This document shows positions 1,969-61,000 of a stretch of DNA of 64,000 bases, piece after piece (position 1 is the stretch's first letter; every line of letters starts with the position of its first letter). The notes beneath the pieces were generated by a model. It was not told where the DNA came from. It was given only the letters and a program-made list of their open reading frames with translations, and made no database searches. The stretch covers positions 407,889 through 471,888 of the forward strand of contig WFMF01000107.1 of the NCBI GenBank assembly GCA_011033025.1, in the 5' to 3' direction. A program made the position numbers and the translations under genes. This stretch comes from Beroe forskalii. Taxonomy: Eukaryota > Ctenophora > Nuda > Beroida > Beroidae.

Positions 1969-4900
1969 ATGGCGGAGGGTACTAATTCTATTTCTCATGG
2001 AAGCTCTTTCAAAGCGAAGAGGATTGACGCTAAAGGAAATGTTAAATACAAAGGTAATTAATATTAATTGATGATTATTCTATCGATTAGCAATAATGAG
2101 TAGTTCGTTATTATTATTATTAATTGATGTAACTGCCTACAAATTACAACGAGTCAAGGACGCTGGTGGAACGCCTTTTGGCAGACTGGAACCCCTGCTA
2201 ATGCATGCACATGCATTGATCGATAAAAACGCATTTAAAACTGTCTGCAAAAAACTTCCGACAAAAATTATATGAAATTGAATTGCGCGCACTATAAAAT
2301 GCGCGTCTTTATCAATCCCTTCAATGATCGATGCACATGGGTACTGTTCTTCGCTGTAAGTAAATCAAGTGGATATATGAATTATGAAACCCCCAATTTT
2401 CAGGTAACATTATGGTGACGATGTATGAAATTCAGTTCCTCCTACCTAAGCAAGTCAGAGAAAAGGACGGGAAAGTCATCCAAAAAGAGACATATCCTCT
2501 GAAGGTTAGAATCATTGCTTTTTTCCGAATTGAATCGCGGAGTTACGGCATTCGAGCTAATTGCTCAAATGCCGTTGATACTATACCTATCGTGGCAACT
2601 CTACGACTACTCAGATCAAAGCTTAGCTCTGACATTATGAAATGAAAAACTGGTCCAGTAAGGTTGCTAAAGATAGTAGACTGGTGCCTTTTCAACTTAC
2701 AGATCCAATAATCAGAGAATTTGCTGTCAGAAGGTGTTATTTTCAGGAGATAAAAAGTTACGGTTGCCATGAGAACGTGTTATCAATCAGAATGTGTTAT
2801 TTTCAGGAGATAAAGAGTTGCGGTTGCCATGAGAACGTGTTATCTATCAGAATGTGTTATTTTCAGGAGATAAAGAGTTACGGTTGCCATGAGAACGTCA
2901 ATTTAATCAGAAATAGGACGAGTAGAGTGGTTGCGAACATCTTCAATTGTAACAATTAAAACGTCGTGTTCTTGTGATATTTCAATGAATATATCATTCA
3001 TCATAGTCATGCATTCTGAGAAGTTTATTGGTTAGAACATACAACTGACACGCAACATATTCATATCACTAAGCTCTTATCTTAGCTAAATCTATAAATA
3101 ATTGAATTAAATTAATTTATTGGAAAATGCAATGCACTGAATATATTATACGGTAATCTACTGTCTGCTATTATGTGAAATACAATATACATTATACATT
3201 ATACACAGCAATTGGCAATGTCAAGGCACGAGCACTGTACTCAGTACACGGTGACGTAATGACGTATGTGAGCTAGTAGAGAGAGAGAGAGAGTTCCCGC
3301 TCAAACCCTATGCTTGTCAATACGTCACTGCATACCAAAACTCTGTTGCTCAGTGACTCTGTGTCTTGACCTTGTCAATAGCTGGGGAAAATTCTGCCCT
3401 TCAGTTGGTCTTGATATGTTGGTAAATTGAACACGGTTTGAAGAACACATGAAGACAAGTGGAATTGGTATGACCGAAGTTGGAAAACACTTGGCGGCAA
3501 ATCCAAGTTGCCAAATTACGTTTGAGGATTGTGATATACTAACGTTTGAAAGTAAAATGTTTAAACGCAAAATTAAAGAAAGCTTATATATACAGGAATA
3601 CGATGATGGAACATTAATTAATGATAAACTGAAATCAGTACCGTTATTCTTATTCAATTTACCAACATATCAAGACCAACTGAAGGGCAGAATTTTCCCC
3701 AGCTATTGACAAGGTCAAGACACAGAGCCACTGAGCAACAGAGTGTCGGTATGCAGTGACGTATTGACAAGCATAGGGTTTGAGCGGGAACTCTCTCTCT
3801 CTACTAGCTCACGTACGTCATTACGTCACCGTGTACTGAGTACAGTGCTCGTGCCTTGACATTGCCAATTGCTGTGTATATTGTATATTGTATATTAGTC
3901 AGGGATGAAATGGAAATCCGTTGGCTTTGAATGTTAAAAGCGATTTAGCAACTGGATATGTTATTTGAGACCCTAAGGAAGCTAACTTGACTTGTCGACA
4001 ATTTTGTATCAGCCGACCACGCCCTTTTTTGACCACGCCCATTATGCGCGTAAGAAAATAGCCATAACTTCGGTTCCTTTTGGAGTTGAGAGAAAACGTT
4101 CCACCTTAAAATGACCGCAATGGCCACATTATGCCAGGCGGATGATGGGTCCAAAGCCCTAGGACCTTCCGTTTTCGAGTTACAGCCCAAAAACTGATTT
4201 TTCATCACTCTCATGAGGCAGCGCCTTGTGAAAAATGTAACTTTGGTTCCTTTTGGAGTTGGGAGCAAAACAACCACCTTAAAATGATTGCAATCAGTAA
4301 ATTATAGGGGGTAGGTAATGGTTCTGAAGCCTTAGGATCTTCCGTCTCGGAGTAATTTCTCAATAAAAAGAATTTAAATTAGCTACAAGGCATAACACAC
4401 CCCTATCCACTCGTAGCATAACCCTATCAACTCTTAGCATACCCATCTCAACTCGTAGCATACCCCTATCAACTCATAACATATCCCTATCAATAAAAAG
4501 AATTCAAATTAGCTCAGCTATCAACTTATCAACTCATAACATACCCATATCAACTCGTAGCATACTCCTGTCAACTCGTAGCACACCCCTCTCAACTCAT
4601 AACATGCCCCTATCAATTGATAACGCACCCCTATCAAATTATCAACTCGTAGCATACTCCTATCAACTCATAACATACCCAATCCACTTATAATCCAACC
4701 CTCTCCAATCCTAAGCCACCCCTATTAACCCATAACATATCCCTATCAACTCGTAGCATTCCCCTCTCAACTCATAACATACCCCAATCAACACATAACA
4801 CACCCCTATCAACTCGTAGCATACCCCTGTCAACTCTTAGCATACCCCTCTCAACTCATAACACACCCCTCTCAACTCTCAGCACACCCCTCTCAACTCT

Positions 4901-7900
4901 TAGCATACACCTCTCAACTCATAACACAGCTCAGTCAACTCATAACATACCCCAATCAACTCATAACATACCCAAATCAACTCTTAGCATACCTCTCAAC
5001 TCATAACACACTCCAGTCAACTCATAACATGCCCCAATCAACTCATAACATACCTCAATCAATTCATAACATACCCCTGTCGTCTATCAACTCATTACAC
5101 ATCCCTATCAACTCGTAGCATGCCCCTATCAACTCATAACATGCCGCTATCAACTCATAATATGCCCTATCAACTCATAACACACCCTTGTCAACTCGTA
5201 ACACACAACCCTCTCAACTTAAAAAACAAACCCTCTCCACTCATTACCCACCCTTATTTACTCATAACATACCCCAGTCAACCCCATAACTTACCCCTAT
5301 CAACTCATAGCATACTTCTCTCGACTCATAACACACCCCTATCAGTATCAACTCATAACACACCCCTATCAACTCATAATACACCGGCCTGTTAACTCAT
5401 GCAGACGTAATTTGATTAACCAAATATGAATTCACCATGTTTCCCATATACAATTGCTTTAGGCATAAAGCAAAGCCCTTATGGATAAGGAAGATGCCTT
5501 ATGCATAAGGAAATTGCCTTATGAGTTTTGGGTTTCTCTTAAATAAGGGTTTCCCTAGTTATGCGTACCACCCAATGACTACAAGAGTACAAGCTGACAA
5601 ATGTGTTTGCACTTTAGAGTCAAATTATGCATGTATTATCAAACAGGAAATTCGCAAAGAAAAATTGCAATGTTGATATACCTAATGTGAGATGGGAATT
5701 GGGACCATTTTTACCACTGCAGAATATGCTCTCCATACAGTACCATCGAAGTAATGAATTCTTACAAGTTTCTTATCATACATCTTGTAAAGTTGTAATA
5801 CTTTGTTGGAAATCCAGGTAGATCTAATTTCAGATTTGATGGTCCATCAGTGCCTATTTTACATCAATGTAAAGTGGGTAATGTTGATATTCGCATGGTA
5901 CTTTGGTAGTTGCTTCTAACTACCTCACCTACATTTAACGTTAAAAGGTTTATGACTTCAAAAACGGAAGATCTCGAGGATTTGGCTCCATAATCTATTG
6001 TATCTAACCAAAATAATGTGGAGATTGCAATTATTTCATATTATGTGGTTGCCTGTAAGTTGCCTTGAAAAGGATGGAGAAATCAACAGCCTTGCAGCTT
6101 ACTTAATTTCGTGGTACCCCACTATAACAACTCAGATGTGGTGCATGCAATAGATAATGGACAGTTTCAGCAGCTTTTCATTTTCTTGCATAACTCACTT
6201 CGATTCGGGTGAACTGACTTAACCAAGTCACCCTCTCAGTATTATGTGGAGATCGCAGTCATCTATAATATGTGGTTGCCTGGAAGTTTGCTGCAAGGTT
6301 CAATGTCTTATAGCTGAGCTAATTTGAATTCTTTTTATTGATAGGGATAGGATATGTTATGAGTTGATAGGGGTATGCTACGAGTTGAGATGGGTATGCT
6401 AAGAGTTGATAGGGTTATGCTACGAGTGGATAGGGGTGTGTTATGCCTTGTAGCTAATTTAAATTCTTTCTATTGAGAAATTACTCCAAAACGGAAGATC
6501 CTAAGGCTTCAGAACCATTATCTACCCCCTATAATGTACTGATTGCGAACATTTTAAGGTGGTTGGTTTACTCCCAACTCCAAAAGGAACCAAAGTTACA
6601 TTTTTCACAAGGCGCTGCCTCGCGAGTGATGAAAAATCAGTTTTTGGGCTGTAACTCGAAAACGGAAGGTCCTAGGGCTTTGGAACCATCATCCGCCTGG
6701 CATAATGTGGCCATTGCGGTCATTTTAAGGTGGAACGTTTTCTCTCAACTCCAAAAGGAACCGAAGTTACGGCTATTTTCTTACGCGCAAAATGGGCGTG
6801 GTCAAAAAAGGGTGTGGTCGGCTGAAACAAAATTGTCGACAAGTCAAGTTAGCTTCCTTAGGGTCTCAAATAACATATCCAGTTGCTAAATCGCTTTTAA
6901 CATTCAAAGCCAACGGATTTAGATATTGGACCAATTCATCCCTGACTATATTGTATTTCACATTATAATAGCAGACAGTAGATTACCGTATAATATATTC
7001 AGTGCATTGCATTTTCCAATAAATTAATTTAAAAAACCGCCGAAAAACCGCGTGTGGTACACTTTGTACTGCACAATCACCCTGCCCAACTGATGACCCG
7101 TTTTTAGCCCAGAGCATCTCATACCTTTTCAGGCCTTAAATTATTATTAAACTCATATAAATTACTTGCTAGTTGAATGTATGAATGACAAAAATTGACC
7201 TATATGTAAAAATTAACTTAGATTTTTTGTTACTCTTGAATGCATGATTTTAATTTGCATATTTATACCTATATTTTAATTATAAATTTACCTTAAACCC
7301 CAAGACATGACATGGTCTATTCGCTGCAACTTTGTACTGTGTTTTATAGATTACAATAGATTTAGCTAAGATAAGAGCTTAGTGATATGAATATGTTGCG
7401 TGTCAGTTGTATGTTCTAACCAATAAACTTCTCAGAATGTATGACTATGATGAATGATATATTCATTGAAATATCACAAGAACACGACGTTTTAATTGTT
7501 ACAATTGAAGATGTTCGTAACTACTCTACTCGTCCTATTTCTGATTAAATTGACGAAGAAATCCCTATTCTACACACCACCATGAGAACGTGTTGTCTAT
7601 CAGAATGTGTTATTTTCAGGAGAAAAAGAGTTACGGTTGCCATGAGAACGTGTTATCTATCAGAATGTGTTATTTTCAGGAGATAAAGAGTTACGGCTGC
7701 CATGAGAACTTGCTGTCTATCAGAATGTGTTATTTTCAGGAGATAAAGAGTTACGGTTGCCATGAGAACGTGTTGTCTATCAGAATGTGTTATTTTCAGG
7801 AGATAAAGAGTTACGGTTGCCATGAGAACGTGTTGTCTATCAGAATGTGTTATTTTCAGGAGATAAAGAGTTACGGTTGTCATGAGAACGTGCTATCTAT

Positions 7901-10900
7901 CAGAATGTGTTATTTTCAGGAGATAAAGAGTTACGGTTGTCATGAGAACGTGTTATCTATCAGAATGTGTTATTTTCAGGAGATAAAGAGTTACGGTTGC
8001 CATGAGAACGTGTTGTCTATCAGAATGTGTTATTTTCAGGAGATAAAGAGTTACGGTTGCCATGAGAACGTGTTGTCTATCAGAATGTGTTATTTTCAGG
8101 AGATAAAGAGTTACGGTTGTCATGAGAACGTGCTATCTATCAGAATGTGTTATTTTCAGGAGATAAAGAGTTACGGTTGTCATGAGAACGTGTTATCTAT
8201 CAGAATGTGTTATTTTCAGGAGATAAAGAGTTACGGTTGCCATGAGAACGTGCTATCTATCAGAATGTGTTATTTTCAGGAGATAAAGAGTTACGGTTGT
8301 CATGAGAATGTGCTATCTATCAGAATGGGCGGTCCCTCTGTAGCTACGCAGGAAATACACTTTAAACTAAAGGAGGCACCAGTCGTCAAGGAGCTCATGG
8401 ACCAGGTGAGACATTGTCCCCTAAAGGGGGGGGGGGGTATTTTGAGAGACATTGCGCCCTAAGGGGGGGGGGGGTGAGACATTGCACACTAAGGGGGGTC
8501 AAGGAGCTCATGGACCAGGTGAGACATTCCCCCTGATTTCGCACACATATCGGGCTGCACTAATCGATACCCAGGTTATAAAGATGAACAAGAGGCCTGC
8601 CACGAGGATGCACAGCTTTGACTCTATCTCCTCCGGCTTCTACGGCATGAACATGTGAGTCATTGCTAACGTATATTTTAATTAATGACCCATTGACAAA
8701 TCAAACATGTGAGTCATTGCTTACTTGTCTTTTAATGACCCATTGTTTGGTTAATACTTTCTCCATACTTTCTACTGATCGGATAATACTTTCTAAATAC
8801 TTTCTCCCAATTGGTTAGTACTTTCTCCATAGAAGTGTGATACATTCATGATTCAACCAATGATGTAATCAGATGATTAAAATCACCATGACATGATGAG
8901 TTTATAGACCATTTTCTGACCTTCTAAAGTCCCATCATTGAACTAGAGGCGCTAGAGACGAGCAGGTCTCACAGAGGGACCACCAACTCACCGCGCTCAT
9001 GGAGAACCCTAGCTACCTCGACATGGACAAGAACAAGAGGAACGGCAATAATTACAGCAGGTCGGCAGCGTATTACCTTAACCTAAATAACCTTATAAGC
9101 AGGTCTCATCTACCGACCTGAACCTAATTAACCTTATTAACAGGACTCTCCAGGGACCTATTCCCGAATAGCCTAGTGAGCTACTAGCTTAATTAAACCA
9201 GCAGTAATTTTCCTTATCTGAACTAAACTCACTTAGCCTAATTAGCAACTCTCCTCTCAGATGTAAACCCAATTAACCTAATCAGCAACTCCTTCCGCAG
9301 CCGTAAGTTTGCCCGCTCCGTGTCAGTTGGCTCCTCTGACAGTTTCCTGACAAGCCCCACCTTCGCACCCCTCTACTCCAACTCGACTGACATGAGCAAC
9401 CCAGACAACACCAGTCCGGGGGTAAGTCTCACTTTATACTGGCGACTTTGCCCACTTCGACTTTTCCTATTTCATTGCGAGCCTTAATAGCATGTTTGTT
9501 ACCTTGACAACAATTAAAATATTCTGTTCCTTGCGCGGTAATACGTTTCTGTTCAGGCGATCCCGCCGGGATTGGATAATCCAGTGTTCCAGCTGAGCCC
9601 CCGCGACGCAACCGGCTTTCCTGTGATGAGTCCCACTTTGGTGGAGGGGGGTGTGGTGCCAGGTGAGTCCCACTTTGGTGGAGGGGGTGTGGTGCCAGGT
9701 GAGTCCCACTTTGGTGGAGGGGGGTGTGGTGCCAGGTGAGTCCCACTTTGGTGGAGGGGGTGTGGTGCCAGGTGAGTCCCACTTGGGGGGGGGGTGGTGC
9801 CAGGTGAGTCCCACTTTGGTGAAGGGGGGTGTGGTGCCAGGTGAATCCCACTTTGGTGGAGGGGGTGTGGTGCCAGGTGAGTCCCACTTTGGTGGAGGGG
9901 GTGTTGTGCCAGGTGAGTCCCACTTTGGTGGAGGGGGTGTGGTGCCAGGTGAGTCCCACTTTGGTGGAGGGGGGTGTGGTGCCAGGTGAGTGCCACTTTG
10001 GTGGAGGGGGTGTGGTGCCAGGTGAGTTCCACTTTGGTGGAGGGGGGTGTGGTGCCAGGTGAGTCCCACTTTGGTGGAGGGGTGTGTGGTGCCAGGTGAG
10101 TCCCACTTTGGTGGAGGGGGGTGTGGTGCCAGGTGAGTCCCACTTTGGTGGAGGGGGTGTGGTGCCAGGTGAGTCCCACTTTGGTCGAGGGGTGTGGTGC
10201 CAGGTGAGTCCCACTTTGGTGGAGGGGGTGTTGTGCCAGGTGAGTCCCACTTTGGTGGAGGGGGGGGTGTGGTGCCAGGTGAGTCCCACTTTGGTGGAGG
10301 GGTGTGGTGCCAGGTGAGTTCCACTTTGGTGGAGGGGGGTGTGGTGCCAGGTGAGTCCCACTTTGGTGGAGGGGGTGTGGTGCCAGGTGAGTCCCACTTT
10401 GGTTGAGGGGGTTGGTGCCAGGTGAGTCCCACTTTGGTGGAGGGGGGTGTGGTGCCAGGTGAGTCCCACTTTGGTGGAGGGGGGTGTGGTGCCAGGTGAG
10501 TCCCACTTTGGTGGAGGGGGTGTGGTGCCAGGTGAGTCCCACTTTGGTGGAGGGGGTGTGGTGCCAGGTGAGTCCCACTTTGCTGGAGGGGGGGGTGTGG
10601 TGCCAGGTGAGTCCCACTTTGCTGGAGGGGGGTGTGGTGCCAGGTGAGTCCCACTTTGGTGGAGGGGTGTGGTGCCAGGTGAGTCCCACTTTGGTGGAGG
10701 GGCGTGGTGCCAGGTGAGTCCCACTTTGGTGGAGGGGGTGGTGCCAGGTGAGTCCCACTTTGGTGGAGGGGGGTGTGGTGCCAGGTGAGTCCCACTTTGG
10801 TGGAGGGGGGTGTGGTGTCAGGTGAGTCCCACTTTGGTGGAGGGGGTGTGGTGCCAGGTGAGTCCCCCTATGGTGGAGGGGGGTGTGGTGCCAGGTGAGT

Positions 10901-12618
10901 CCTACTTTGGTGGAGGGGGGTGTGGTGCCAGGTGAGTCCCACTTTGGTTGAGGGGGGTGTGGTGCCAGGTGAGTCCCCCTTTGGTGGAGGGGGGTGTGGT
11001 GCCAGGTGAGTCCCACTTTGGTGGAGGGTGTGGTGCCAGGTGAGTCCCACTTTGGTGGAGGGGGTGTGGTGCCAGGTGAGTCACACTTTGGTGGAGGGGG
11101 TGTGGTGCCAGGTGAGTCCCACTTTGGTAGAGGGGTGTGGTGCCAGGTGAGTCCCTCTTTGGTGGAGGGGGGTGTGGTGCCAGGTGAGTCCCACTTTGGT
11201 GGAGGGGGTGTGGTGCCAGGTGAGTCCCACTTTGGTGGAGGGGGTGTGGTGCCAGGTGAGTCCCACTTTGGTGGAGGGGGTGTGGTGCCAGGTGAGTCCC
11301 ACTTTGGTTGAGGGGGGTGTGGTGCCAGGTGAGTCCCACTTTGGTGGAGGGGGGTGTGGTGCCAGGTGAGTCCCTCTTTGGTGGAGGGGTGTGGTGCCAG
11401 GTGAGTCCCACTTTGGTGGAGGGGGTGTGGTGCCAGGTGAGTTCCACTTTGGTGGAGGGGGGTTTGGTGCCAGGTGAGTCCCACTTTGGTGGAGGGGGGT
11501 GTGGTGTCAGGTGAGTCCCCCTTTGGTGGAGGGGGGTGTGGTGCCAGGTGAGTCCCACTTTGGTGGAGGGTGTGTGGTGCCAGGTGAGTCCCACTTTGGT
11601 GGAGGGGGGTGTGGTGCCAGGTGAGTCACACTTTGGTGGAGGGGGGTGTGGTGCCAGGTGAGTCCCACTTTGGTGGAGGGGGTGTGGTGCCAGATGAGTC
11701 CCACTTTGGTGGAGGGGGGTGTGGTGCCAAGTGAGTTCCACTTTGGTGGAGGGGGGTGTGGTGCCAGGTGAGTCCCACTTTGGTGGAGGGGGTGTGGTGC
11801 CAGGTGAGTCCCACTTTGGTGGAGGGGGTGTGGTGCCAGGTGAGTCCCACTTTGGTGGAGGGGGGGTGTGGTGCCAGGTGAGTCCCACTTTGGTGGAGGG
11901 GGTGTGGTGCCAGGTGAGTCCCACTTTGGTGGAGGGGGGTGTGGTGCCAGGTGAGTCCCACTTTGGTGGAGGGGTGTGGTGCCAGGTGAGTCCAACTTTG
12001 GTGGAGGGGTGTGGTGCCAGGTGAGTCCCACTTTGGTGGAGGGGGTGTGGTGCCAGGTGAGTCCCACTTTGGTGGAGGGGGGTGTGGTGCCAGGTGAGTC
12101 CCACTTTGGTGGAGGGGGGTGTGGTGCCAGGCGAGTCCCACTTTGGTGGAGGGGGTGTGGTGCCAGGTGAGTCCCACTTTGGTGGAGGGGTGTGTGGTGC
12201 CAGGTGAGTCCCACTTTGGTGGAGGGGGTGTTGTGCCAGGTGAGTCCCACTTTGGTGGAGGGGGGTGTGGTGCCAGGTGAGTCCCACTTTGGTGGAGGGG
12301 GGTGTGGTGCCAGGTGAGTCCCACTTTGGTGGAGGGGGGTGTGGTGCCAGGTGAGTCCCACTTTGGTTGAGGGGGGTGTGGTGCCAGGTGAGTTCCACTT
12401 TGGTGGAGGGGGTGTGGTGCCAGGTGAGTCCCCCTTTGGTGGAGGGGGGTGTGGTGCCAGGTCACCACTACTCGCCTTTAAACCCCCCCCTGTTTCAGGT
12501 CACCAGTATCCGCTCCCTGAGCTGATGCAGACTCAGAAGTACGCTGTGGTGGAGATATCACCGGACCAAGGATCAGGGAGCCGACCAGCAGCGCCAGTAC
12601 CACCCTTACCACCCCCAG
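1969..12618 (+). CDS. IRS-type PTB adaptor, FRS2/DOK-like (left copy), 3' end open
   Basis: Eight exons with consistent phases: 1969-2053, 2404-2504, 8280-8405, 8575-8654, 8947-9060, 9301-9421, 9557-9662, 12499-12618 (about 284 residues). Residues about 13-104 resemble an IRS-type PTB domain, with FKAKRID early, YPLKEIKSYG in the position of the FRS2/DOK (W/Y)PLxxLRRYG strand, and a C-terminal helix ending KELMDQ. The tail is Ser/Pro-rich with candidate phosphotyrosine sites YLDM (Y154, a YxxM PI3K-type motif), YSNS (Y194) and YAVVEI (Y259, similar to the FRS2 C-terminal YAVIDI). Expected role: a cytoplasmic docking protein for receptor tyrosine kinases. It starts MAEG, so the FRS2 myristoylation signal is absent. 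The final exon after the phase-1 donor at 12618 was not found; without splicing the frame stops shortly inside the array. The family call rests on motif similarity only. Confidence 0.72.
2731..2895 (+). repeat. 60-bp exon 3 acceptor array, upstream part (3 acceptors)
   Basis: Three units with the 3' splice site TTATTTTCAG followed by GAGATAAAGAGTTACGGTTG. The array is cut here by the foldback element and resumes at 7578. Confidence 0.9.
3196..3890. mobile_element. Nested foldback element with TIRs of about 235 bp
   Basis: 3196-3431 is repeated in reverse complement at 3652-3890 with few mismatches, including the TACTCAGTACACGGTGACG block, a GA-rich run and CAACTGAAGGGCAGAATTTT. The centre (3432-3651) carries a fragment of a coding frame. 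It interrupts the left limb of the larger foldback, so it inserted later. Confidence 0.85.
3449..3709 (+). pseudogene. Retroelement-like C-terminal endonuclease fragment
   Basis: An 86-codon frame whose FKRKIKESLYI, LINDKLKSV and PLFLFNL segments resemble the C-terminal tail of GIY-YIG endonucleases in retroelements such as Penelope-like elements (RKIxEaxxI....LN....VxLxLFN). No reverse transcriptase is present, and the frame runs into the right inverted repeat. I infer a captured and decaying remnant. It could also be chance. Confidence 0.4.
4400..5400. repeat. Minisatellite of about 22 bp in the centre of the foldback
   Basis: About 40 degenerate units of the type CCCCTATCAACTCATAACATA. 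A few inverted units (TATGAGTTGATAGGGGTATG) lie at 6350-6440. Confidence 0.9.
5401..6300. other. Foldback interior, no gene seen
   Basis: Holds short CTTATGCATAAGG-type repeats (5455-5560) and two degenerate copies of the terminal module with AAAACGGAAGATC and ATAATGTGGAGAT. The 64-codon frame at 5627 has no recognisable family. Confidence 0.5.
7578..8338 (+). repeat. 60-bp exon 3 acceptor array, main part (12 acceptors)
   Basis: Each 60-bp unit holds TTATTTTCAG plus the first 16 codons of adaptor exon 3 (EIKSYGCHENVLSIRM). Because 60 is a multiple of three and no unit has a stop, the whole array is one open frame joined to exon 3. Any upstream acceptor would add 20-residue repeats ending CYFQ. 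The modelled exon uses the last acceptor (8279). The right arm has only one unit, at 51859. Confidence 0.95.
8389..8530 (+). repeat. Exon 3 donor array, left arm (short)
   Basis: The last codons of exon 3 with the donor (CATGGACCAG|GTGAGACATT) are followed by CCCCTAAAGGGGGG and recur at 8501-8530. The same array is hugely expanded in the right arm. Confidence 0.85.
8650..8850 (+). repeat. Exon 4 donor duplication and AATACTTTCT repeats, left arm
   Basis: ACATGTGAGTCATTGCT with its exon 4 donor occurs at 8651 and again at 8705. It is followed by about four degenerate units of GGTTAGTACTTTCTCC. Confidence 0.7.
9610..12465 (+). repeat. Exon 7 donor array, left arm (about 80 units of 32-36 bp)
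   Basis: Each unit contains GTGCCAG|GTGAGTCCCAC, a consensus 5' splice site CAG|GTGAGT, then TTTGGTGGAGGGGG. The modelled exon 7 ends at the first such donor (9662), and its last 36 bases are themselves a unit. Variation in G-run length shifts frame between units, so the long frames on both strands here are artefacts. Confidence 0.96.
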
Positions 12619-15110
12619 GTACTAGTTTGTTAAGCTGCCAGGTACACACCAGTAGCACCATTACCACCCCCAGGTACCAGTTTGTTTAGCTGCCAGGTAC
12701 ACACCAGTACCACCCTTACCACCCCCAGGTACCAGTTTGTTTAGCTGCCAGGTACACACCAGTACCACCCTTACCACCCCCAGGTACCAGTTTGTTTAGC
12801 TGCCAGGTACACACCAGTACCACCCTTACCACCCCCAGGTACCAGTTTGTTTAGCTGCCAGGTACACACCAGTAGCACCCTTACCACCCCCAGGTACCAG
12901 TTCGTGTAGCTGCCAGGTACACACCAGTACCACCCTTACCTCACTAGATACCAGTTTCTTAGCTACCAGGTACACACCAGTACCACCCTTACCACCCCCA
13001 GGTACCAGTTTGTTTAGCTGCCAGGTACACACCAGTAGCACCCTTACCACCCCCAGTTACCAGTTTGTTTAGCTACCAGGTACACACCAGTACCACCCTT
13101 ACCACCCCCAGGTACCAGTTTGTTTAGCTGCCAGGTACACACCAGTACCACCCTTACCACCCCCAGGTACCAGTTCATATAGCTGCCAGGTACACACCAG
13201 TAGCACCCTTACCAGCCCCAGGTAACAGTTCGTATAGCTGCCAGGTACACACCAGTACCACCCTTACCACCCCCAGGTACCAGTTTATTTAGCTGTCAGG
13301 TACACACCAGTACCACCCTTACCACCCCCAGGTACCAGTTTGTTTAGCTACCAGGTACACACCAGTACCACCCTTACCACCCCCAGGTACCAGTTTGTTT
13401 AGCTGCCAGGTACACACCAGTACCACCCTTACCACCCCCAGGTACCAGTTTGTTTAGCTGCCAGGTACACACCAGTACCACCCTTACCACCCCCAGGTAC
13501 CAGTTTGTTTAGCTACCAGGTACACACCAGTACCACCCTTACCTCACTAGGTACCAGTTTGTTTAGCTACCAGGTACACACCAGTACCACCCTTACCTCA
13601 CTAGGTACCAGTTTGTTTAGCTGCCAGGTACACACCAGTACCACCCTTACCACCCCCAGGTACCAGTTTGTTTAGCTGCCAGGTACACACCAGTACCACC
13701 CTTACCACCCCCAGGTACCAGTTTGTTTAGCTACCAGGTACACACCAGTACCACCCCTTACCACCCCAGGTACCAGTTTGTTTAGCTACCAGGTACACCA
13801 GTACCACCCTTACCACCCCAGGTACCAGTTTATTTAGCTGTCAGGTACACACCAGTACCACCCCTTACCACCCCAGGTACCAGTTTATTTAGCTGTCAGG
13901 TACACACCAGTACCACCCTTACCACCCCCAGGTACCAGTTTGTTTAGCTGCCAGGTACACACCAGTACCACCCTTACCACCCCCAGGTACCAGTTTGTTT
14001 AGCTGCCAGGTACACACCAGTACCACCCTTACCACCCCAGGTACCAGTTTGTTTAGCTACCAGGTACACACCAGTACCACCCTTACCTCACTAGGTACCA
14101 GTTTGTTTAGCTACCAGGTACACACCAGTACCACCCTTACCTCACTAGGTACCAGTTTGTTTAGCTGCCAGGTACACACCAGTACCACCCTTACCACCCC
14201 CAGGTACCTGTTTGTTTAGCTGTCAGGTACACACCAGTACCACCCTTACCTCACTAGATACCAGTTTGTTTAGCTGCCAGGTACACACCAGTACCACCCT
14301 TACCACCCCCAGGTACCAGTTTGTTTAGCTGCCAGGTACACACCAGTACCACCCTTACCACCCCCAGGTACCAGTTTGTTTAGCTACCAGGTACACACCA
14401 GTACCACCCTTACCTCACTAGATACCAGTTTCTTAGCTACCAGGTACACACCAGTACCACCCTTACCTCACTAGGTACCAGTTTTTTTAGCTGCCAGGTA
14501 CACACCAGTACCACCCTTACCACCCCCAGGTACCAGTTTGTTTAGCTGCCAGGTACACACCAGTACCACCCTTACCTCACTAGGTACCAGTTTGTTTAGC
14601 TGCCAGGTACACACCAGAACCACCCTTACCGCCTCCAGGTACCAGTTTGTTTAACTACCAGGTACACACCAGTACCACCCTTAACACCCCCAGGTACCAG
14701 TTTGTTTAGCTGCCAGGTACACACCAGTACCACCCTTACCACCCCCAGGTACCAGTTTGTTTAGCTGCCAGGTACACACCAGTACCACCCTTACCACTCC
14801 AGATACCAGTTTGTTTAGCTGCCAGGTACACACCAGTACCACCCTTACCACCCCCAGGTACTAGTTTGTTTAGCTGTCAGGTACACACCAGTACCACCCT
14901 TACCACCCCCAGGTACCAGTTTGTTTAGCTGCCAGGTACACACCAGTACCACCCTTACCACCCCCAGGTACCAGTTTGTTTAGCTGCCAGGTACACACCA
15001 GTACCACCCTTACCTCACTAGATACCAGTTTGTTTAGCTTCCAGGTACAGACCAGTACCACCCTTACCTCACTAGATACCAGTTTGTTTAGCTGTCAGGT
15101 ACTCGTTCGA
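12590..15110 (+). repeat. Exon 8 donor array, left arm (about 47 units of about 53 bp)
   Basis: The unit copies the 3' end of exon 8 with its donor (CCACCCTTACCACCCCCAG|GTAC) plus CAGTTTGTTTAGCTGCCAG and a variant ending CTCACTAGGTACC. Each unit has in-frame stops soon after the donor. If exon 8 is not spliced, the adaptor would end within the first unit. Confidence 0.95.
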
Positions 15111-15114
15111 GGTA

Positions 15115-17227: not shown

Positions 17228-17339
17228 CATTTAATCGGTTAAAGAAATTAAAAATACCTCTCTTGATAAATACCATTAAATAAAACGTAAAAAATGTAAG
17301 CAAATATCTTGAAGATTACTCGTGTCTGGTCGTAAGATC

Positions 17340-48200: not shown

Positions 48201-51200
48201 CGGAGAGAGTTGCTTATTAGGTTAATTGGGTTTAGATCTGAGAGAGTTGCTAATTAGGCTAATTGGGTTTAGGTCAGATAAGGAAAATTACTGCTGGTTT
48301 AATTACACTAGTAGCTCACTAGGCTATTCGGGTTGAGGTCGCTAGACGCTAAAAGAGAGCTGCTGATAAGGTTAATTAGGTTGAGGTCGGTAGATGAGAG
48401 CTGCTAATAAGGTTTATTGGGTTTAGGTAGAAGAGAGCTAATAATAAGGTTAATTAGGTTGAGGTCGGTAGATGAGAGCTGCTAATAAGGTTTATTGGGT
48501 TTAGGTAGAAGAGAGCTAATAATAAGGTTAATTAGGTTGAGGTCGGTAGATGAGAGCTGCTAATAAGGTTTATTGGGTTTAGGTAGAAGAGAGCTAATAA
48601 TAAGGTTAATTAGGTTGAGGTCGGTAGATGAGAGCTGCTAATAATGTTAATTGGGTTTAGGTAATACGCTGCCGACCTGCTGTAATTATTGCCGTTCCTC
48701 TTGTTCTTATCCATGTCGAGGTAGCTGGGGTTCTCCATGAGCGCGGTGAGTTGGTGGTCTCTCTGTGAGACTTGCTCGTCTCTAGCGCCTCTAAAAGGGT
48801 TCAATGAGGGGAGTTTAGAAGGTCAGAAGGTGGTCTATAAACTCATCATGTCATGGTGATTTTAATCATCTGATTACATCATTGGTTGAATGTATCGCAC
48901 TTCTATGGAGAAAGTACTTACCAAACAGGAGAAAGTACTAACCAAACAGGAGAAAGTACTAACCAAACAGGAGAAAGTACTAACCAAACAGGAGAAAGTA
49001 CTAACCAAACAGGAGAAAGTACTAACCAAACAGGAGAAAGTACTAACCAAACAGGAGAAAGTACTAACCAAACAGGAATAAGATTTAGAAAGTGTTATCC
49101 AATCAGTAGAAAGTATGGAGAAAGTATTAACCAATCAATGGGCCATTAAAAGATACGTAAGCAATGACTCACATGTTCATGCCGTAGAACCCGGAAGAGA
49201 TAGAGTCAAAGCTGTGCATCCTCGTGGCAGGCCTCTTGTTCATCTTTATAACCTGGGTATCGATTAGTGCAGCCCGATTATGTGTGCGAAATCAGGGTGA
49301 ATAGGGGCTCCTAGACCACCCCCCTCCTTTAGGGGGCAATGTCTCACCTGGTCCATAAGATCCTTGACCCCCCTTAGGGGGCAATGTCTCACCTGGTCCA
49401 TGAGCTCCTTGACCCCCCTTAGGGGGCAATGTCTCACCTGGTCCATGAGCTCCTTGACCCCCCTTAGGGGGCAATGTCTCACCTGGTCCATGAGCTCCTT
49501 GACCCCCCTTAGGGGGCAATGTCTCACCTGGTCCATGAGCTCCTTGACCCCCCCCCTTAGGGGGCAATGTCTCACCCCCACACCCTCCTTTAGGGGGCAA
49601 TGTCTCACCTGGTCCATAAGATCCTTGACCCCCCTTAGGGGGCAATGTCTCACCTGGTCCATGAGATCCTTGACCCCCCCCCCCCTTAGGGGGCAATGTC
49701 TCACCTGGTCCATAAGATCCTTGACCCCCCTTAGGGGGCAATGTCTCACCTGGTCCATGAGATCCTTGACCCCCCCACACCCCCCTTAGGGGGCAATGTC
49801 TCACCTGGTCCATGAGATCCTTGACCCCCCCCTTAGGGGGCAATGTCTCACCTGGTCCATGAGCTCCTTGACCCCCCCTAGGGGGCAACATCTCACCCCC
49901 AATGACCCCCCCCCCCTTAGGGGGCAATGTCTCACCTGGTCCATGAGCTCCTTGACCCCCCCCCCCTTAGGGGGCAATGTCTCACCTGGTCCATGAGCTC
50001 CTTGACCCCCTTAGGGGCAATGTCTCACCTGGTCCATGAGCTCCTTGACCCCCCCCTTAGGGGCAATGTCTCACCCCCACACCCTCCTTTAGGGGGCAAT
50101 GTCTCACCTGGTCCATAAGATCCTTGACCCCCCTTAGGGGGCAATGTCTCACCTGGTCCATGAGATCCTTGACCCCCCTTAGGGGGCAATGTCTCACCTG
50201 GTCCATGAGATCCTTGACCCCCATTACCCCCCTTAGGGGCAATGTCTCACCTGGTCCATGAGATCCTTGACCCCCCTTAGGGGGCAATGTCTCACCTGGT
50301 CCATAAGATCCTTGACCCCCCTTAGGGGGCAATGTCTCACCTGGTCCATGAGATCCTTGACCCCCCCACACCCCCCTTAGGGGGCAATGTCTCACCTGGT
50401 CCATGAGATCCTTGACCCCCCCCCCCCCTTAGGGGGCAATGTCTCACCTGGTCCATGAGCTCCTTGACCCCCCCTGGGGGGCAACATCTCACCCCCAATG
50501 ACCCCCCCTTAGGGGCAATGTCTCACCCCCTAGGGGGCAACATCTCACCCCACACCCCCCCTAGGGGGCAACATCTCACCCCCAATGACCCCCCCCCCCT
50601 TAGGGGGCAATGTCTCACCCCCCTAGGGGGGGCAACATCTCACCCCCACACTCCCCTTAGGGGGCAACATCTCACCCCCACACCCCCCTTAGGGGGCAAT
50701 GTCTCACCTGGTCCATGAGATCCGTGACCCCCCTTAGGGGGCAATGTCTCACCTGGTCCATGAGCTCCTTGACCCCCCCCCTTAGGGGGCAATGTCTCAC
50801 CTGGTCCATGAGCTCCTTGACCCCCCTTAGGGGGCAATGTCTCACCTGGTCCATGAGATCCTTGACCCCCCCCCCTAGGGGGCAATGCCTCACCTGGTCC
50901 ATGAGCTCCTTGACCCCCCTTAGGGGGGCAATGTCTCACCCCCCCCCCTAGGGGGGCAACATCTCACCCCCACACCCCCTAGGGGGCAACATCTCACCCC
51001 CCTTAGGGGGCAATGTCTCACCCCCCTAGGGGGGCAACATCTCACCCCCCACACCCCCCTTAGGGGGCAATGTTTCACCTGGTCCATGAGATCCGTGACC
51101 CCCCCCTTAGGGGGCAATGTCTCACCTGGTCCATGAGCTCCTTGACCCCCCCCCCCCTTAGGGGGCAATGTCTCACCTGGTCCATGAGCTCCTTGACCCC

Positions 51201-52811
51201 CCTTAGGGGGCAATGTCTCACCTGGTCCATGAGATCCTTGACCCCCCCCCCTTAGGGGGCAATGTCTCACCTGGTCCATGAGCTCCTTGACCCCCCTTAG
51301 GGGGCAATGTCTCACCTGGTCCATGAGATCCTCGACCCCCCCCCCTAGGGGGCAATGCCTCACCTGGTCCATGAGCTCCTTGACCCCCCCCCTTAGGGGG
51401 CAATGTCTCACCCCCCCCCCCCCCCTAGGGGGGCAACATCTCACCCCCACACCCCCTAGGGGGCAACATCTCACCCCCCCCTTAGGGGGCAATGTCTCAC
51501 CCCCCCCCCCTAGGGGGGCAACATCTCACCCCCACACCCCCTAGGGGGCAACATCTCACCCCCCCCCCCCCCTTAGGGGGCAATGTCTCACCCCCCCCCC
51601 TAGGGGGGCAACATCTCACCCCCCACACCCCCCTTAGGGGGCAACATCTCACCCCCCCTTAGGGGGCAATGTCTCACCCCCCTAGGGGGGCAACATCTCA
51701 CCCCCACACCCCCCTTAGGGGGCAATGTCTCACCTGGTCCATGAGCTCCTTGACGACTGGTGCCTCCTTTAGTTTGAAGTGTATTTCCTGCGTAGCTACA
51801 GAGGGGCCGCCCATTCTGATAGATAGCACGTTCTCATGACAACCGTAACTCTTTATCTCCTGAAAATAACACATTCTAACAGCAAATTCTCAGATTATTG
51901 GATCTGTAAGTTGAAAAGGCACCAGCTAAAATGCCGTTGATACTATACCTATCGTGGCAACTGTAGTCGTAGAGTTGCCACGATAGGTATAGTATCAACG
52001 GCATTTGAGCAATTAGCTCGAATGCCGTAACTCCGCGATACAATTCGGAAAAAAGCAATGATTCTAACCTTCAGAGGATATGTCTCTTTTTGGATGACTT
52101 TCCCGTCCTTTTCTCTGACTTGCTTAGGTAGGAGGAACTGAATTTCATACATCGTCACCATAATGTTACCTGAAAATTGGGGTTTCATAATTCATATATC
52201 CACTTGATTTACTTACTATACAGCGAAGACTCTAAGGATCTAAAGCAAATATTTCCAGAGGAGCCAGGATGAAAAAGTGAAAAATTTGCAAAAAGGGACG
52301 GTTTTCCAATCTGGGACATCCGTGTTCACTTCCACTGCCTGTCACTGTTCTCCCCCTTAACTCCTTATAAGGGTACACAATACACATCATGTGCATCGAT
52401 CATTGAAGGGATTGATAAAGACGCGCATTTTATAGTGCGCGCAATTCAATTTCATAGAATTTTTGTCGACAGTTTTTAAATGCGCTTTTATCGATCAGTC
52501 CATGTGCATGCATTAGCGAGGGTTCCAGTCTGCCAAAAGGCGTTCCACCAGCGTCCTTGACTCGTAAGCACATTGACTATCAGTAAAGTAATTTGTAGGC
52601 AGTCACATTTGTAATTTGTAGGCAGTCACATCAATTAATAATAATAATAACGAATCACTCATTTATAATTGCTAATCGATAGAATAACCATCAATCAATA
52701 TTAAGCAATTAATATTAAGTAATTACCTTTGTATTTAACATTTCCTTTAGCATCAATCCGCTTCGCTTTGAAAGAGCTCCCATGAGAAATAGAGTTAGTG
52801 CCTTCCGCCAT
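45191..52811 (-). CDS. IRS-type PTB adaptor, FRS2/DOK-like (right copy), 3' end open
   Basis: Same eight-exon structure on the minus strand: 52811-52727, 52169-52069, 51859-51734, 49252-49173, 48790-48677, 48197-48077, 47945-47840, 45310-45191, with lengths and phases identical to the left copy. Exon 1 differs at six of 85 bases and all six are synonymous. Later exons carry a few replacements (MNNSDN for MSNPDN in exon 6, AAGF for ATGF in exon 7, MQAQ for MQTQ in exon 8). This pattern suggests both copies have been kept under protein-level constraint. Intron 2 is 209 bp here but 5.8 kb in the left copy because of the foldback insertion and the 60-bp array. As in the left copy, no terminal exon beyond exon 8 could be identified. 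Confidence 0.72.
45345..47880 (-). repeat. Exon 7 donor array, right arm
   Basis: Counterpart of 9610-12465, read on the minus strand. Many units are truncated (donor or GTCCCAC portion missing), unlike the regular left array. This is either decay or consensus error. Confidence 0.96.
48200..48675 (-). repeat. Intron 5 acceptor-side repeat array, right arm
   Basis: Degenerate units of about 33-35 bp (GGTTAATTAGGTTGAGGTCGG, AGAGAGCTGCTAATAA). On the minus strand they carry AG-ending pyrimidine tracts like the real exon 6 acceptor, and the array lies directly against that acceptor. The left arm has a shorter version at 9060-9300. Confidence 0.8.
48900..49135 (+). repeat. 21-bp minisatellite in intron 4, right arm
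   Basis: About eight near-identical units of GAGAAAGTACTAACCAAACAG, the expanded counterpart of the degenerate units at 8750-8850. Confidence 0.95.
49318..51760 (-). repeat. Exon 3 donor array, right arm (about 2.4 kb)
   Basis: More than 30 full units read on the minus strand as GAGCTCATGGACCAG|GTGAGACATTG plus a C/G-rich hairpin CCCCCTAAGGGGGG, mixed with shorter units. Each full unit copies the last 15-16 bases of exon 3 and its 5' splice site. Exon 3 itself ends at 51734. Confidence 0.93.
51928..52006. repeat. Hairpin in adaptor intron 2, right arm only
   Basis: AATGCCGTTGATACTATACC through TGGCAACT is followed after about 8 bases by its exact complement. The left arm has one copy (2570-2602), followed by about 90 bases absent here. 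Confidence 0.9.
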
Positions 52812-55560: not shown

Positions 55561-55734
55561 CTGTGTGCAGTGAGCACATGGATCCAGAAAACTATAAATA
55601 TCACAACATACTGTAACTTGATAAATAACTTTTATTAGAAATTCTATGAAAAGTAAATTGCCCGTACTGTCTTTTACACATATGTGAAACATCATCGGAG
55701 CATCAGTGTATGCCACAGTATTACCAACTGTTAT

Positions 55735-55850
55735 ATAGCAACTATATTGCAACTATATAGCAACTATATAGCAACTATATAGCAACTATATAGCAACTTT
55801 ATAGCAACTATATAGCAACCTGCAACTATATAGCAACTTTATAGCAACTA
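55735..55850. repeat. Short GCAACTATATA array
   Basis: About ten units of AGCAACTATAT, with TTTAT variants. Confidence 0.9.
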
Positions 55851-56690: not shown

Positions 56691-56829
56691 GGTTTTGTAA
56701 CTCGCAAAAACTGCAAACCTTCCATTAAAACCTCGGCCTTCGGCCTCGGTCTTAATGTGTTATTATGCCCTCGCGCTTCGCGCTCGGTGCATAATATCGC
56801 GGTTTGCAATTTTTGCTAGTTACAAAACC
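56691..56829. mobile_element. Serial-hairpin element upstream of the galactosyltransferase
   Basis: Terminal inverted repeats of about 29 bp begin GGTTTTGTAACT, with two mismatches between ends. Inside are two palindromes with cores CCTCGGCCTTCGGCCTCGG and CCCTCGCGCTTCGCGCTCGG. It ends 53 bp before the start codon at 56883. Confidence 0.65.
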
Positions 56830-56882
56830 TCTCAACCTGCAATCCGTATGTAAAACACTCAAATCTTCAGGTATTCTGTAAA

Positions 56883-58082
56883 ATGAGAAATGTAACGCCC
56901 TGTGTCTCGCGACCCCGCCTCCTTTGGGTTGCCATCCTAGCAGGGTTGATGTATGTGACTTATAACATTTCATACCGAGACTACGTTGCTCACCCCACCG
57001 ACTCTATCTACGGGAACATGGCAGCTGACAGGCAACCTAATTATAACAATACAGACAGTAATCAAAATGCAGACAGTCAAATTAATGTTCATAGTCACAG
57101 TACAGACAGTAAAACAGATAGAGGAAGCAAAGATTGTGAAATACTTGGTAAAATAGCAGACTTGTTTTGGAACGGCTGCCAGAACGACAAGACTGCTAAG
57201 AACAACCACACCGTCAAAATACTGTCAAATAGTCGTCATGATGATGAAGTTGCTATGGAAACTAGCACATCAGATAGTCGTCATGAAGTTGCTATGGAAA
57301 CGAACAGTACAAAGAAGAAGAAAAACAAAAAAACTCGGTATAAGTTCATAATATTCATTGTCAGTGACCCTAGGCACGCAGAAAGACGGGCGTTGCTGCG
57401 GGAGAGGAGTTGGGCGGGCTACGAGTGGGCGGAGTCCGGGAGCCCGGTGCGGGACTGGAAGTACTTCTTCGTGATAGGGCGTAGACCTAACATGACAGCA
57501 GTGCGGGAGGAGTCCAACCTGCACAAGGATATCCTGTTCTCAGACCAGGTGGACAGCTACAAGAACCTGGTTTACAAGGTGCTGTGGGCGCTCACCAACA
57601 TACCCCAGCACTTTACTTTCCAGTACCTGGTAAAGACAGACGACGACTCCTTCATCAACATCTCCCTGCTGGACCGCTACCTGGACACTCTGCACCACGA
57701 CACCTTGTTCTACGGGGGCAGGCTGTTTGTAGGGAAGCACGTACTGCGGGAGGGCCCCCTGGCAGTATCGTACGAAGCTGTGCCCACCCCGCACTACCCC
57801 CTATTCTGCGGGGGCGGGGGCTACGTGCTGGGGCGGGGTGCAGTGCAGGAGCTGCTCCGTGTCTACAACACCGGGGTGCAGCCCCTCTTCTACGTGGAGG
57901 ATGCCTTCCTGGGGGCCCTTGCCAAGCAGTCAGGCAGCGTGCAGCCCCAGCAGATAGACGGCTTCTACTGGCACTTCGCTGCGGGATGCGGGGACCGGGA
58001 CACTATCCTACTGCACCACCTCAACGCTACCTTGCTAGAGGGATACATGAGGAGGTGGTCTGAAGGATATGCTTACTGCTAG
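56883..58082 (+). CDS. GT31 beta-1,3-galactosyltransferase, B3GALT6-like, single exon
   Basis: An intact 399-residue frame. Residues 13-29 form one hydrophobic signal-anchor, giving a type II Golgi membrane topology, followed by a hydrophilic, Ser/Asn-rich stem to about residue 150. The catalytic domain begins with FIIFIVSD and has the GT31 landmarks: ERRALLRERSW, FFVIG, VDSYKNLVYKVLWAL, the metal-binding DDD (253-255, KTDDDSF), FCGGGGYVLGRGAVQELL and VEDAFLG (339 onward). The C-terminal AGCGDRD...LLEGYM segment resembles B3GALT6, which adds a galactose in the proteoglycan linker tetrasaccharide and is also intronless in mammals. GC content is much higher than in the flanks. The last codons are the source of the array that follows. 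Family confident, subfamily tentative. Confidence 0.88.
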   Translation: MRNVTPCVSRPRLLWVAILAGLMYVTYNISYRDYVAHPTDSIYGNMAADRQPNYNNTDSNQNADSQINVHSHSTDSKTDRGSKDCEILGKIADLFWNGCQNDKTAKNNHTVKILSNSRHDDEVAMETSTSDSRHEVAMETNSTKKKKNKKTRYKFIIFIVSDPRHAERRALLRERSWAGYEWAESGSPVRDWKYFFVIGRRPNMTAVREESNLHKDILFSDQVDSYKNLVYKVLWALTNIPQHFTFQYLVKTDDDSFINISLLDRYLDTLHHDTLFYGGRLFVGKHVLREGPLAVSYEAVPTPHYPLFCGGGGYVLGRGAVQELLRVYNTGVQPLFYVEDAFLGALAKQSGSVQPQQIDGFYWHFAAGCGDRDTILLHHLNATLLEGYMRRWSEGYAYC

Positions 58083-61000
58083 TGGGGGCACCATACCTTG
58101 CTAGAGGGATACATGAGGAGATGGACTGAGGGACATGCTTACTGCTAGTGGGGGCACCATACCTTGCTAGAGGGATACATGAGGAGATGGACTGAGGGAC
58201 ATGCTTACTGCTAGTGGGGGCACCATACCTTGCTAGAGGGATACATGAGGAGGTGGACTGAGGGACATGCTTACTGCTAGTGGGGGCACCATACCTTGCT
58301 AGAGGGATACATGAGGAGGTGGACAGAGGGACATACCTACTGCTAGTGGGGGCACCATACCTTGCTAGAGGGATACATGAGGAGATGGGCTGAGGGACAT
58401 GCTTACTGCTAGTGGGGGCACCATACCTTGCTAGAGGGATACATGAGGAGGTGGACTGAGGGACATGCTTACTGCTAGTGGGGGCACCATACCTTGCTAG
58501 AGGGATACATGAGGAGGTGGACAGAGGGACATACCTACTGCTAGTGGGGCACCATACCTTGCTAGAGGGATACATGAGGAGATGGACTGAGGGACATGCT
58601 TACTGCTAGTGGGGGCACCATACCTTGCTAGAGGATACATGAGGAGGTGGACTGAGGGACATGCTTACTGCTAGTGGGGGCACCATACCTTGCTAGAGGG
58701 ATACATGAGGAGGTGGACAGAGGGACATACCTACTGCTAGTGGGGGCACCATACCTTGCTAGAGGGATACATGAGGAGATGGACTGAGGGACATGCTTAC
58801 TGCTAACTTGCTAGAGGGATACATGAAGAGGTGGAGTGAGGGACATGCTTACTGCTAACTTGCTAGAGGGATACATGAGGAGGTGGAGTGAGGGACATGC
58901 TTACTGCTAACTTGCTAGAGGGATACATGAGGAGATGGACTGAGGGACATGCTTACTGCTAGTGGGGGCACCATACCTTGCTAGAGGGATACATGAGGAG
59001 GTGGAGTGAGGGACATGCTTACTGCTAGTGGGGGCACCATACCTTGCTAGAGGGATACACATGGAGTGGAGGGACATGCTTACTGCTAGCTTGCTAGAGG
59101 GATACATGAGGAGATGGACTGAGGGACATGCTTACTGCTAGCTTGCTAGAGGGATACATGAGGATGTGGAGTGAGGGACATGCTTACTGCTAACTTGCTA
59201 GAGGGATACATGAGGAGATGGACTGAGGGACATGCTTACTGCTAGTGGGGGCACCATACCTTGCTAGAGGGATACATGAGGAGGTGGACTGAGGGACATG
59301 CTTACTGCTAGTGGGGGCACCATACCTTGCTAGAGGGATACATGAGGAGATGGACTGAGGGACATGCTTACTGCTAGCTTGCTAGAGGGATACATGAGGA
59401 GGTGGAGTGAGGGACATGCTTACTGCTAACTTGCTAGAGGGATACATGAGGAGGTGGACTGAGGGACATGCTTACTGCTAACTTGCTAGAGGGATACATG
59501 AGGAGATGGACTGAGGGACATGCTTACTGCTAGCTTGCTAGAGGGATACATGAGGAGGTGGAGTGAGGGACATGCTTACTGCTAGTGGGGGCACCATGCT
59601 GCTAGAGGGATACATGAGGAGGTGGAGTGAGGGACATACATAGTGGGGCACCATACCTTGCTAGAGGGATACATGAGGAGATGGACTGAGGGACATGCTT
59701 ACTGCTAGCTTGCTAGAGGGATACATGAGGAGGTGGAGTGAGGGACATGCTTACTGCTAGTGGGGGCACCATACCTTGCTAGAGGGATACATGAGGAGAT
59801 GGACTGAGGGACATGCTTACTGCTAGCTTGCTAGAGGGATACATGAGGAGGTGGAGTGAGGGACATGCTTACTGCTAGTGGGGGCACCATACCTTGCTAG
59901 AGGGATACATGAGGAGGTGGAGTGAGGGACATGCTTACTGCTAACTTGCTAGAGGGATACATGAGGAGATGGACTGAGGGACATGCTTACTGCTAACTTG
60001 CTAGAGGGATACATGAGGAGGTGGAGTGAGGGACATGCTTACTGCTAACTTGCTAGAGGGATATATGAGGAGGTGGACTGAGGGACATGCTTACTGCTAG
60101 CTTGCTAGAGGGATACATGAGGAGATGGACTGAGGGACATGCTTACTGCTAACTTGCTAGAGGGATACATGAGGAGGTGGAGTGAGGGACATGCTTACTG
60201 CTAACTTGCTAGAGGGATACATGAGGAGATGGACTGAGGGACATGCTTACTGCTAGTGGGGGCACCATACCTTGCTAGAGGGATACATGAGGAGGTGGAC
60301 AGAGGGACATACCTACTGCTAGTGGGGGCACCATACCTTGCTAGAGGGATACATGAGGAGGTGGAGTGAGGGACATGCTTACTGCTAACTTGCTAGAGGG
60401 ATATATGAGGAGGTGGACTGAGGGACATGCTTACTGCTAGCTTGCTAGAGGGATACATGAGGAGATGGACTGAGGGACATGCTTACTGCTAACTTGCTAG
60501 AGGGATACATGAGGAGGTGGAGTGAGGGACATGCTTACTGCTAACTTGCTAGAGGGATACATGAGGAGGTGGAGTGAGGGACATGCTTACTGCTAACTTG
60601 CTAGAGGGATACATGAGGAGGTGGAGTGAGGGACATGCTTACTGCTAACTTGCTAGAGGGATACATGAGGAGGTGGACTGAGGGACATGCTTACTGCTAG
60701 TGGGGGCACCATACCTTGCTAGAGGGATACATGAGGAGATGGACTGAGGGACATGCTTACTGCTAACTTGCTAGAGGGATACATGAGGAGATGGACTGAG
60801 GGACATGCTTACTGCTAACTTGCTAGAGGGATACATGAGGAGGTGGAGTGAGGGACATGCTTACCGCTAACTTGCTAGAGGGATACATGAGGAGATGGAC
60901 TGAGGGACATGCTTTACTGCTAACTTGCTAGAGGGATACATGAGGAGATGGACTGAGGGACATGCCTGCTAACTTGCTAGAGGGATACATGAGGAGGTGG

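Follow-up and report, generated by a model that had tools for sequence, protein, structure and literature searches.

Minisatellites are generally modelled as being born by a short tandem duplication, which then expands. Here we describe tandem arrays at exon-intron borders in a stretch of 64,000 nucleotides (nt) from the ctenophore Beroe forskalii (the window: C77:407889-471888, forward strand, contig WFMF01000107.1, running to the contig end; assembly GCA_011033025.1, 216 Mb in 1134 contigs), which holds a TRPM2-like channel gene between two inverted copies of an adaptor gene. As in the birth model, two-, few- and many-copy states occur and related gene copies differ in array presence and length; unlike in that model, the unit here often comprises an exon-intron border, including coding nucleotides and a splice motif that is still intact. 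Since the same border occurs in one-, two- and many-copy states, one can test whether tandem duplications fall at random relative to gene structure.

Duplication of splice signals has been described in another context. According to passages of one paper (PMC4974935), a new intron arises in the Rogers model and in one potato RdRp case, and 24-bp AGGT segments have been multiplied in fission-yeast exons. Our arrays resemble the Rogers and potato cases in the tandem duplication of a segment bearing a splice signal, which in that model leaves the protein unchanged (PMC4974935, same passages), but no new intron appears here; instead, pre-existing introns lengthen. A further likeness is to the variable internal tandem repeats of duplicated human genes, where minisatellite expansion differs between paralogs, as an excerpt reports (PMC2812944). 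Among ctenophores, Tandem Repeats Finder (TRF) repeats make up 14 Mb (13%) of the Hormiphora californensis genome (excerpts of PMC8527503), as against 10.9% in a 174-kb sample here, and the window is array-rich even so. Those excerpts of the Hormiphora genome paper (PMC8527503) report no exon-border arrays. None of the matches listed in the open-licence literature, available in part, presents arrays built on exon borders as a recurrent class, which is weak evidence of novelty.

Border-spanning arrays in the window

The 28 exons of the channel gene (41.3-17.7 kb, minus strand) were modelled with GT-AG junctions. The spliced model, 1450 amino acids long, has Nematostella TRPM2 (6co7) as its best match among solved structures (E 2.4e-110), and its product is 75% identical to Mnemiopsis leidyi protein P0001 with 98% of the query covered and 77% identical to a Bolinopsis protein with 77% covered. 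The match is protein-long and includes the NUDT9H-like C-terminus, as in TRPM2-type channels. Eight tandem duplications or arrays span a border in this gene, each carrying the splice site together with exon-edge codons. Here and in the genes below the units are repeated head to tail and measure about 10-100 bp, as in minisatellites, with the exception of one 138-bp unit at a myosin locus (C1). The gene and its border arrays, compared where possible with a partial TRPM paralog, are as follows.

17740-41288, minus strand: TRPM2-like channel gene with NUDT9H-like C-terminal part, 28 exons
41017-41105, minus strand: exon 1 donor, 44-bp tandem duplication, 2.0 copies, 10 nt of exon; single copy in the paralog
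40185-40223, minus strand: exon 3 donor, 21-bp duplication, 1.9 copies, 12 nt of exon; 30 bp in 10.9 copies in the paralog
40032-40176, minus strand: exon 4 acceptor array, 30 bp, 4.8 copies, 20 nt of exon; 6.0 copies in the paralog
31723-32440, minus strand: exon 9 acceptor, 45 bp, 16 copies, abutting, ending 3 nt before the exon
29568-30367, minus strand: exon 12 donor array, 42 bp, 19 copies, 40 nt of exon; array also at the paralog
28766-28850, minus strand: exon 14 donor, imperfect 45-bp duplication, 1.9 copies, 33 nt of exon
23933-25017, minus strand: exon 22 acceptor array, 26/52 bp, about 42 copies, 11 nt of exon
21806-23262, minus strand: exon 24 acceptor array, 32 bp, 40-46 copies, 19 nt of exon
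18935-19005, minus strand: exon 26 donor, 33 bp, 2.2 copies, 26 nt of exon

In the exon 9 acceptor array the units read TTTGTAA, while the real site reads TTTGCAG. At the exon 24 acceptor, longer pieces of the exon start have also been copied, both inside the array and just upstream of it. Elsewhere in the gene, intron 4 (window 34531-39325) holds three related element copies with internal 163-173-bp repeats.

Whether such units contain true exon edges depends on the borders, which we set by sequence models and by alignment to relatives, comparing 27 TRPM junctions with Mnemiopsis and Bolinopsis. All eight spanned borders (donors 1, 3, 12, 14 and 26; acceptors 4, 22 and 24) are aligned in the relatives. 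The residues at donors 1, 3, 12 and 14 and at acceptor 4 are conserved, and acceptors 22 and 24 and donor 26 are aligned but divergent in the outermost edge residues; junctions 24-27 had no Bolinopsis residues. In the first model, residues or frame were missing relative to the relatives at junctions 5, 6, 9, 19 and 25. Junctions 6 and 9 were corrected, and junction 19 was omitted from all later tests except the null that allows exonic seeds; the exon-6 donor and the exon-10 and exon-20 acceptors were repositioned between the per-intron and the gene-wide null runs described below. Because the relatives align across the spanned borders, the arrays are best read as exon edges copied into introns. 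On this alignment the exon-edge codons in the units represent coding sequence copied into introns, not a repeat recruited into exons, most surely so at the conserved edges. Exonisation of the arrays was rejected, since relatives align over the exon edges.

The adaptor gene is present as copy L (plus strand, 1-16708) and copy R (minus strand, 54679-41920), one on either side of the channel gene, with aligned blocks outside the arrays about 80-99% identical. The inverted arrangement may reflect a true palindromic duplication, or the assembly may have joined two haplotypes. The product matches PF02174 (IRS-type PTB) at 15.8 bits (E 0.014), below the curated cut-off of 22; FRS2/Dok-like is a candidate name that we read from this sub-threshold match and a YLDM motif. 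Its border arrays are the following.

2727-2898, plus strand: L exon 3 acceptor array (60 bp), upstream piece, 2.9 copies, ended by an inserted stretch
7580-8327, plus strand: L exon 3 acceptor array, 60 bp, 12.5 copies
51820-51885, minus strand: R exon 3 acceptor unit, single copy
49329-51734, minus strand: R exon 3 donor array, 45 bp, about 55 copies, full unit with 20 nt of exon
9627-12462, plus strand: L exon 7 donor array, 36-37 bp, 78 copies, consensus unit with CAG/GTGAGT (slash at the border)
45349-47875, minus strand: R exon 7 donor array, about 71 copies
12594-15102, plus strand: L exon 8 donor array, 55 bp, 46 copies
44343-45215, minus strand: R exon 8 donor array, 55 bp, 16 copies

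The exon 3 acceptor unit consists of 20 nt of intron and 40 nt of exon and is present in about 15 copies in L and one in R. In L this array is split by a 4.66-kb stretch (2896-7555) with inverted ends of about 200 bp that are 98.5% identical. The exon 3 donor shows the opposite imbalance, with two copies that include the exon part in L (8385-8534) as against about 55 in R.

An earlier note on this DNA, made from the sequence alone, had reported that arrays overlap or abut exon borders in these two genes and that their units carry the splice site plus exon-edge codons, and the sequence of both genes bears this out. The adaptor arrays it named at both borders of exon 3 (60 bp at the acceptor, 45 bp at the donor) and at the donors of exons 7 and 8 are all present, with two unit sizes revised: its 53 bp is 55 bp, and its 32-36 bp is 36-37 bp. 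Channel acceptors 4, 22 and 24 and donor 12 do span their borders as it listed, while the exon 9 acceptor array stops short. Likewise, the two- or three-copy starts that it saw at donors 1, 3, 14 and 26 hold up, and the exon 27 arrays abut the border rather than span it. Its view of the pattern as recurrent also holds, in that border-spanning arrays occur in other genes (myosin and CCT-like) and related copies are found single as well as expanded.

The same border in related gene copies

Related loci differ in copy number at the same border in three comparisons: adaptor L with R, the TRPM gene with its paralog, and a pair of CCT-like genes. The partial TRPM paralog lies at C77:372465-362881, and its similarity ends in exon 14. 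At donor 1 the paralog has one copy and the window two, with a junction microhomology that we read as at most 1 nt. Matches to the exon-12 donor array extend over about 2.7 kb at the paralog as against 0.8 kb in the window. The CCT-like gene (PF00118 matches) forms an inverted pair on C558, about 40 kb apart, in which the differences run both ways: copy b has a 37-bp donor-spanning array of 2.9 copies where copy a has one copy, and copy a has a 31-bp acceptor array of 3.7 copies (2 nt of exon) where copy b has one. These pairs show change at the same border; alone they do not separate gain from loss.

Some details of these copies stand apart from the array comparison. Of the 96 nt of exon 9, the examined slice of the TRPM paralog yielded the first 38 alone, and the paralog's exon-2 acceptor region (about 50 bp) is duplicated around an insertion of about 480 bp. 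In the CCT-like gene (L051 549-790), 16 nt near one exon's end recur at the next exon's start, with a short intron between them; GT-AG borders that would remove one copy could not be placed by eye.

Array placement against random expectation

To the earlier note, arrays began at exon borders too often for chance, and it proposed a check of array ends against shuffled introns, which we ran on TRPM and on sampled introns. Arrays were called by TRF and a self-alignment detector, or by TRF alone; the self-alignment detector alone splits large arrays and inflates counts (spanning 8 of 46 in TRPM versus 7.8 expected, and 3 of 22 in the first independent set versus 1.8). Several tests dropped introns of at least 1.7 kb, with the limit at 2.3 kb in one run of the completed-set test. 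When whole arrays were shuffled within introns, 13 of 24 TRPM edges lay within 10 nt of a border versus 2.56 expected, a five-fold excess, and 7 of 39 did so in the first independent set versus 1.85. This null is not a fair one: an array grows long only after its birth, and part of its seed may be exonic. We therefore also used a seed null, in which each array was collapsed to one unit and the unit placed at random, per intron or gene-wide. Under it, 13 of 24 TRPM arrays called by TRF alone span a border or lie within 10 nt of one versus 7.5 expected (P = 0.010), a 1.7-fold excess, and 15 of 25 do so with both detectors versus 8.7 (P = 0.005). The claim of an excess thus stands against whole-array shuffling and only weakly against seed placement, and the difference is a caution that whole-array shuffling inflates border excess.

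For spanning itself, the TRPM outcome depends on the null. With the per-intron seed null, 6 of 24 arrays span a border versus 4.75 (TRF alone, P = 0.33), or 8 of 25 versus 5.3-7.0 (both detectors, P = 0.13-0.39); gene-wide, 8 span versus 4.1-5.9 (P = 0.04-0.20). Overall, the observed 8 compare with 4.1-7.0 from random seed placement (P = 0.04-0.39). Purely exonic duplications are in deficit, at 2 of 30 versus 6.4-8.8 expected (P = 0.03-0.002). In adaptor L, 2 of 9 arrays span versus 1.1-1.4 expected; this test was set aside, several borders being misplaced by at least 1 nt.

As independent loci we used matches to myosin heads and CCT in which junctions were located, the myosin gaps being filled by relaxed searches. 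This completion covered 17 gaps in nine myosin loci; the C29 donor case had been seen before it. The junction-score cut-off was 0 for the first list and 2 for the added lists; junctions below it and pairs in which no junction was found were excluded, and the resulting set is small. Its array load is lower, with TRF arrays in 10.9% of 174 kb around the myosin loci (5.2 per 10 kb), compared with 9.4 per 10 kb and 48% coverage in the window. In the first independent set (73 introns), 3 of 44 arrays span a border versus 2.4-3.2 expected, and 7 lie within 10 nt versus 4.1-4.9. Array number in this set scales with intron length, and no additional border effect appears (p = 0.34 over all introns, 0.90 for those below 1.7 kb). 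In the completed set (87 introns, myosin and CCT-like), 5 of 48 arrays span versus 2.6-4.0 (P = 0.11-0.37); the five are at C1, C225, C29, CCT-like copy b and C785, the last just at the 4-nt limit, and the C1 array abuts in one test but spans with the union of both detectors. Pooling TRPM with the first set gives 10-11 of 45 spanning versus 8.1-10.4 (P = 0.20-0.48), or 10 of 25 versus 6.7 for units of at least 20 bp (P = 0.095); the pooled tests mix two array densities and carry lower weight. Taken over these tests, the border excess is modest and consistent in direction, strong in TRPM where it was first noticed and marginal elsewhere.

Origin of the border arrays

We conclude that random tandem duplication, filtered by selection and followed by expansion, probably explains most of the pattern. 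Short stretches of DNA (about 20-140 bp) would be duplicated in tandem at many places in the genome, by end joining or local re-replication. A copy lying wholly within an exon would usually damage the protein and be lost. A copy in an intron or across a border would be tolerated, the intact first donor or last acceptor staying beside the exon body. A fair share of the tolerated duplications would straddle a border by chance, and often so because introns are short (median 306 nt in TRPM and 231 nt in the first independent set). Unequal exchange or slippage would then expand some of them into arrays with several to tens of splice sites, while related gene copies would stay single-copy or lose the array. 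The chemistry of duplication and expansion, the direction of change (a gain and not a loss) and the splice-site copy in use are inferences.

The breakpoints are consistent with this reading. The exonic share of the unit fits a uniform distribution from 0 to 1 (Kolmogorov-Smirnov P = 0.72, n = 16; P = 0.49 for 12 TRPM and myosin/CCT cases; both sets exclude the C29 donor and C785 cases), so that breakpoints keep no set distance from the splice site, and duplications affect donors as well as acceptors. Together with the microhomology of at most 1 nt at donor 1, these observations argue against a lesion fixed at the splice site, of which the data show no sign. Splice motifs within the arrays are largely intact, with conservation of 0.88-1.00 in the scored motifs versus unit means of 0.86-0.98, and each border therefore has many candidate sites. 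Inactivation of decoy sites was rejected on the same grounds. The loci also allow one to ask how the spliceosome copes when tens of almost identical donors follow one another, as about 78 do in one adaptor copy.

Several results weigh against purely random birth and favor duplications being born preferentially at or beside borders, through splice-site sequence, the exon-intron composition step or co-transcriptional RNA-DNA hybrids, so that array edges pile up there. With a gene-wide null that allows exonic seeds, TRPM spanning reaches 8 versus 2.9-3.8 (P = 0.005-0.016). TRPM arrays that span a border or lie within 10 nt of one number 16 of 25 (16 of 28 with the long intron) versus 6.1-9.9 under the seed null (P = 2e-5 to 0.008), and the independent genes follow mildly, with 9 versus 4.6-6.4 in the completed set (P = 0.03-0.15), and 7 of 22 versus 3.4 in the first set at TRF scores of at least 70 (P = 0.02); TRPM and the first set pooled give 22-23 of 45 versus 13.4-15.2 (P = 0.002-0.007). 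TRPM arrays occur at 1.0 per intron whatever the intron length (likelihood-ratio p at most 0.001), as border seeding would give, and several TRPM border cases are two-copy and therefore probably young. In addition, a clear acceptor array at C29 (69 bp, 32 copies, about 44 nt of exon) was dropped by the junction-score rule; were it counted, the spanning total would be six. Against this, spanning by itself does not reach significance in the independent set, array number in first-set introns below 1.7 kb follows length without a further border effect, the exonic extents fit a uniform distribution, and the data are strongest in the very gene where the pattern was first noticed. We regard preferential birth at borders as unlikely, though it is the alternative that we take most seriously, and a birth bias toward splice sites is suggested rather than shown. 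It is similarly doubtful, if conceivable, that ctenophore tandem duplications in general fall preferentially at exon-intron borders, at about 1.5-2 times the random rate and linked to transcription or splicing, with some growing to tens of intact splice sites; if true, exon borders would be continuing nurseries of minisatellites and spare splice sites.

The excess could also lie in retention rather than birth, border arrays being kept or favored since spare sites alter splicing through length variants or robustness. The intact motifs noted above would fit, as would the C. elegans intronic minisatellite that an excerpt links to regions of multiple alternative splicing (PMC4039745). However, in a young array everything is conserved, which makes intact sites weak evidence, and copy numbers of about 15 versus 1 and about 55 versus 2 between related copies do not look constrained; we consider this explanation improbable. 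Still less probable is a dispersed satellite or transposon-borne repeat inserted at splice sites. Some other repeats of the window are indeed parts of repeated elements (163-173-bp arrays in three related copies at 34.5-39.3 kb, and 21-bp arrays within 2896-7555), but the border units hold the local exon's own codons, and a genome-wide search with the exon-12 array, the one unit so searched and by a method that skips very common words, matched only the window and the paralog, both on C77. A dispersed-satellite origin was accordingly rejected for that array. Least credible of all is intron gain by duplication of AGGT-containing exon segments, as in the Rogers model, a route to which the earlier note had linked the pattern. 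Several units do contain AGGT or CAGGT, but the intron is present in both related copies with or without an array, which already contradicts intron gain at the compared loci. No new intron accompanies a duplication, the units straddle an existing border rather than being wholly exonic AGGT segments, and relatives align across the junctions; intron gain was rejected.

Beyond the two main genes, the window contains a galactosyltransferase gene (PF01762) at 56.8-58.1 kb. A 52/66-bp array (window 58028-63913) starts in its last codons and ends less than 100 bases from the contig end. Its unit is a copy of the last part of the coding sequence; arrays therefore also seed at coding ends with no known splice site.

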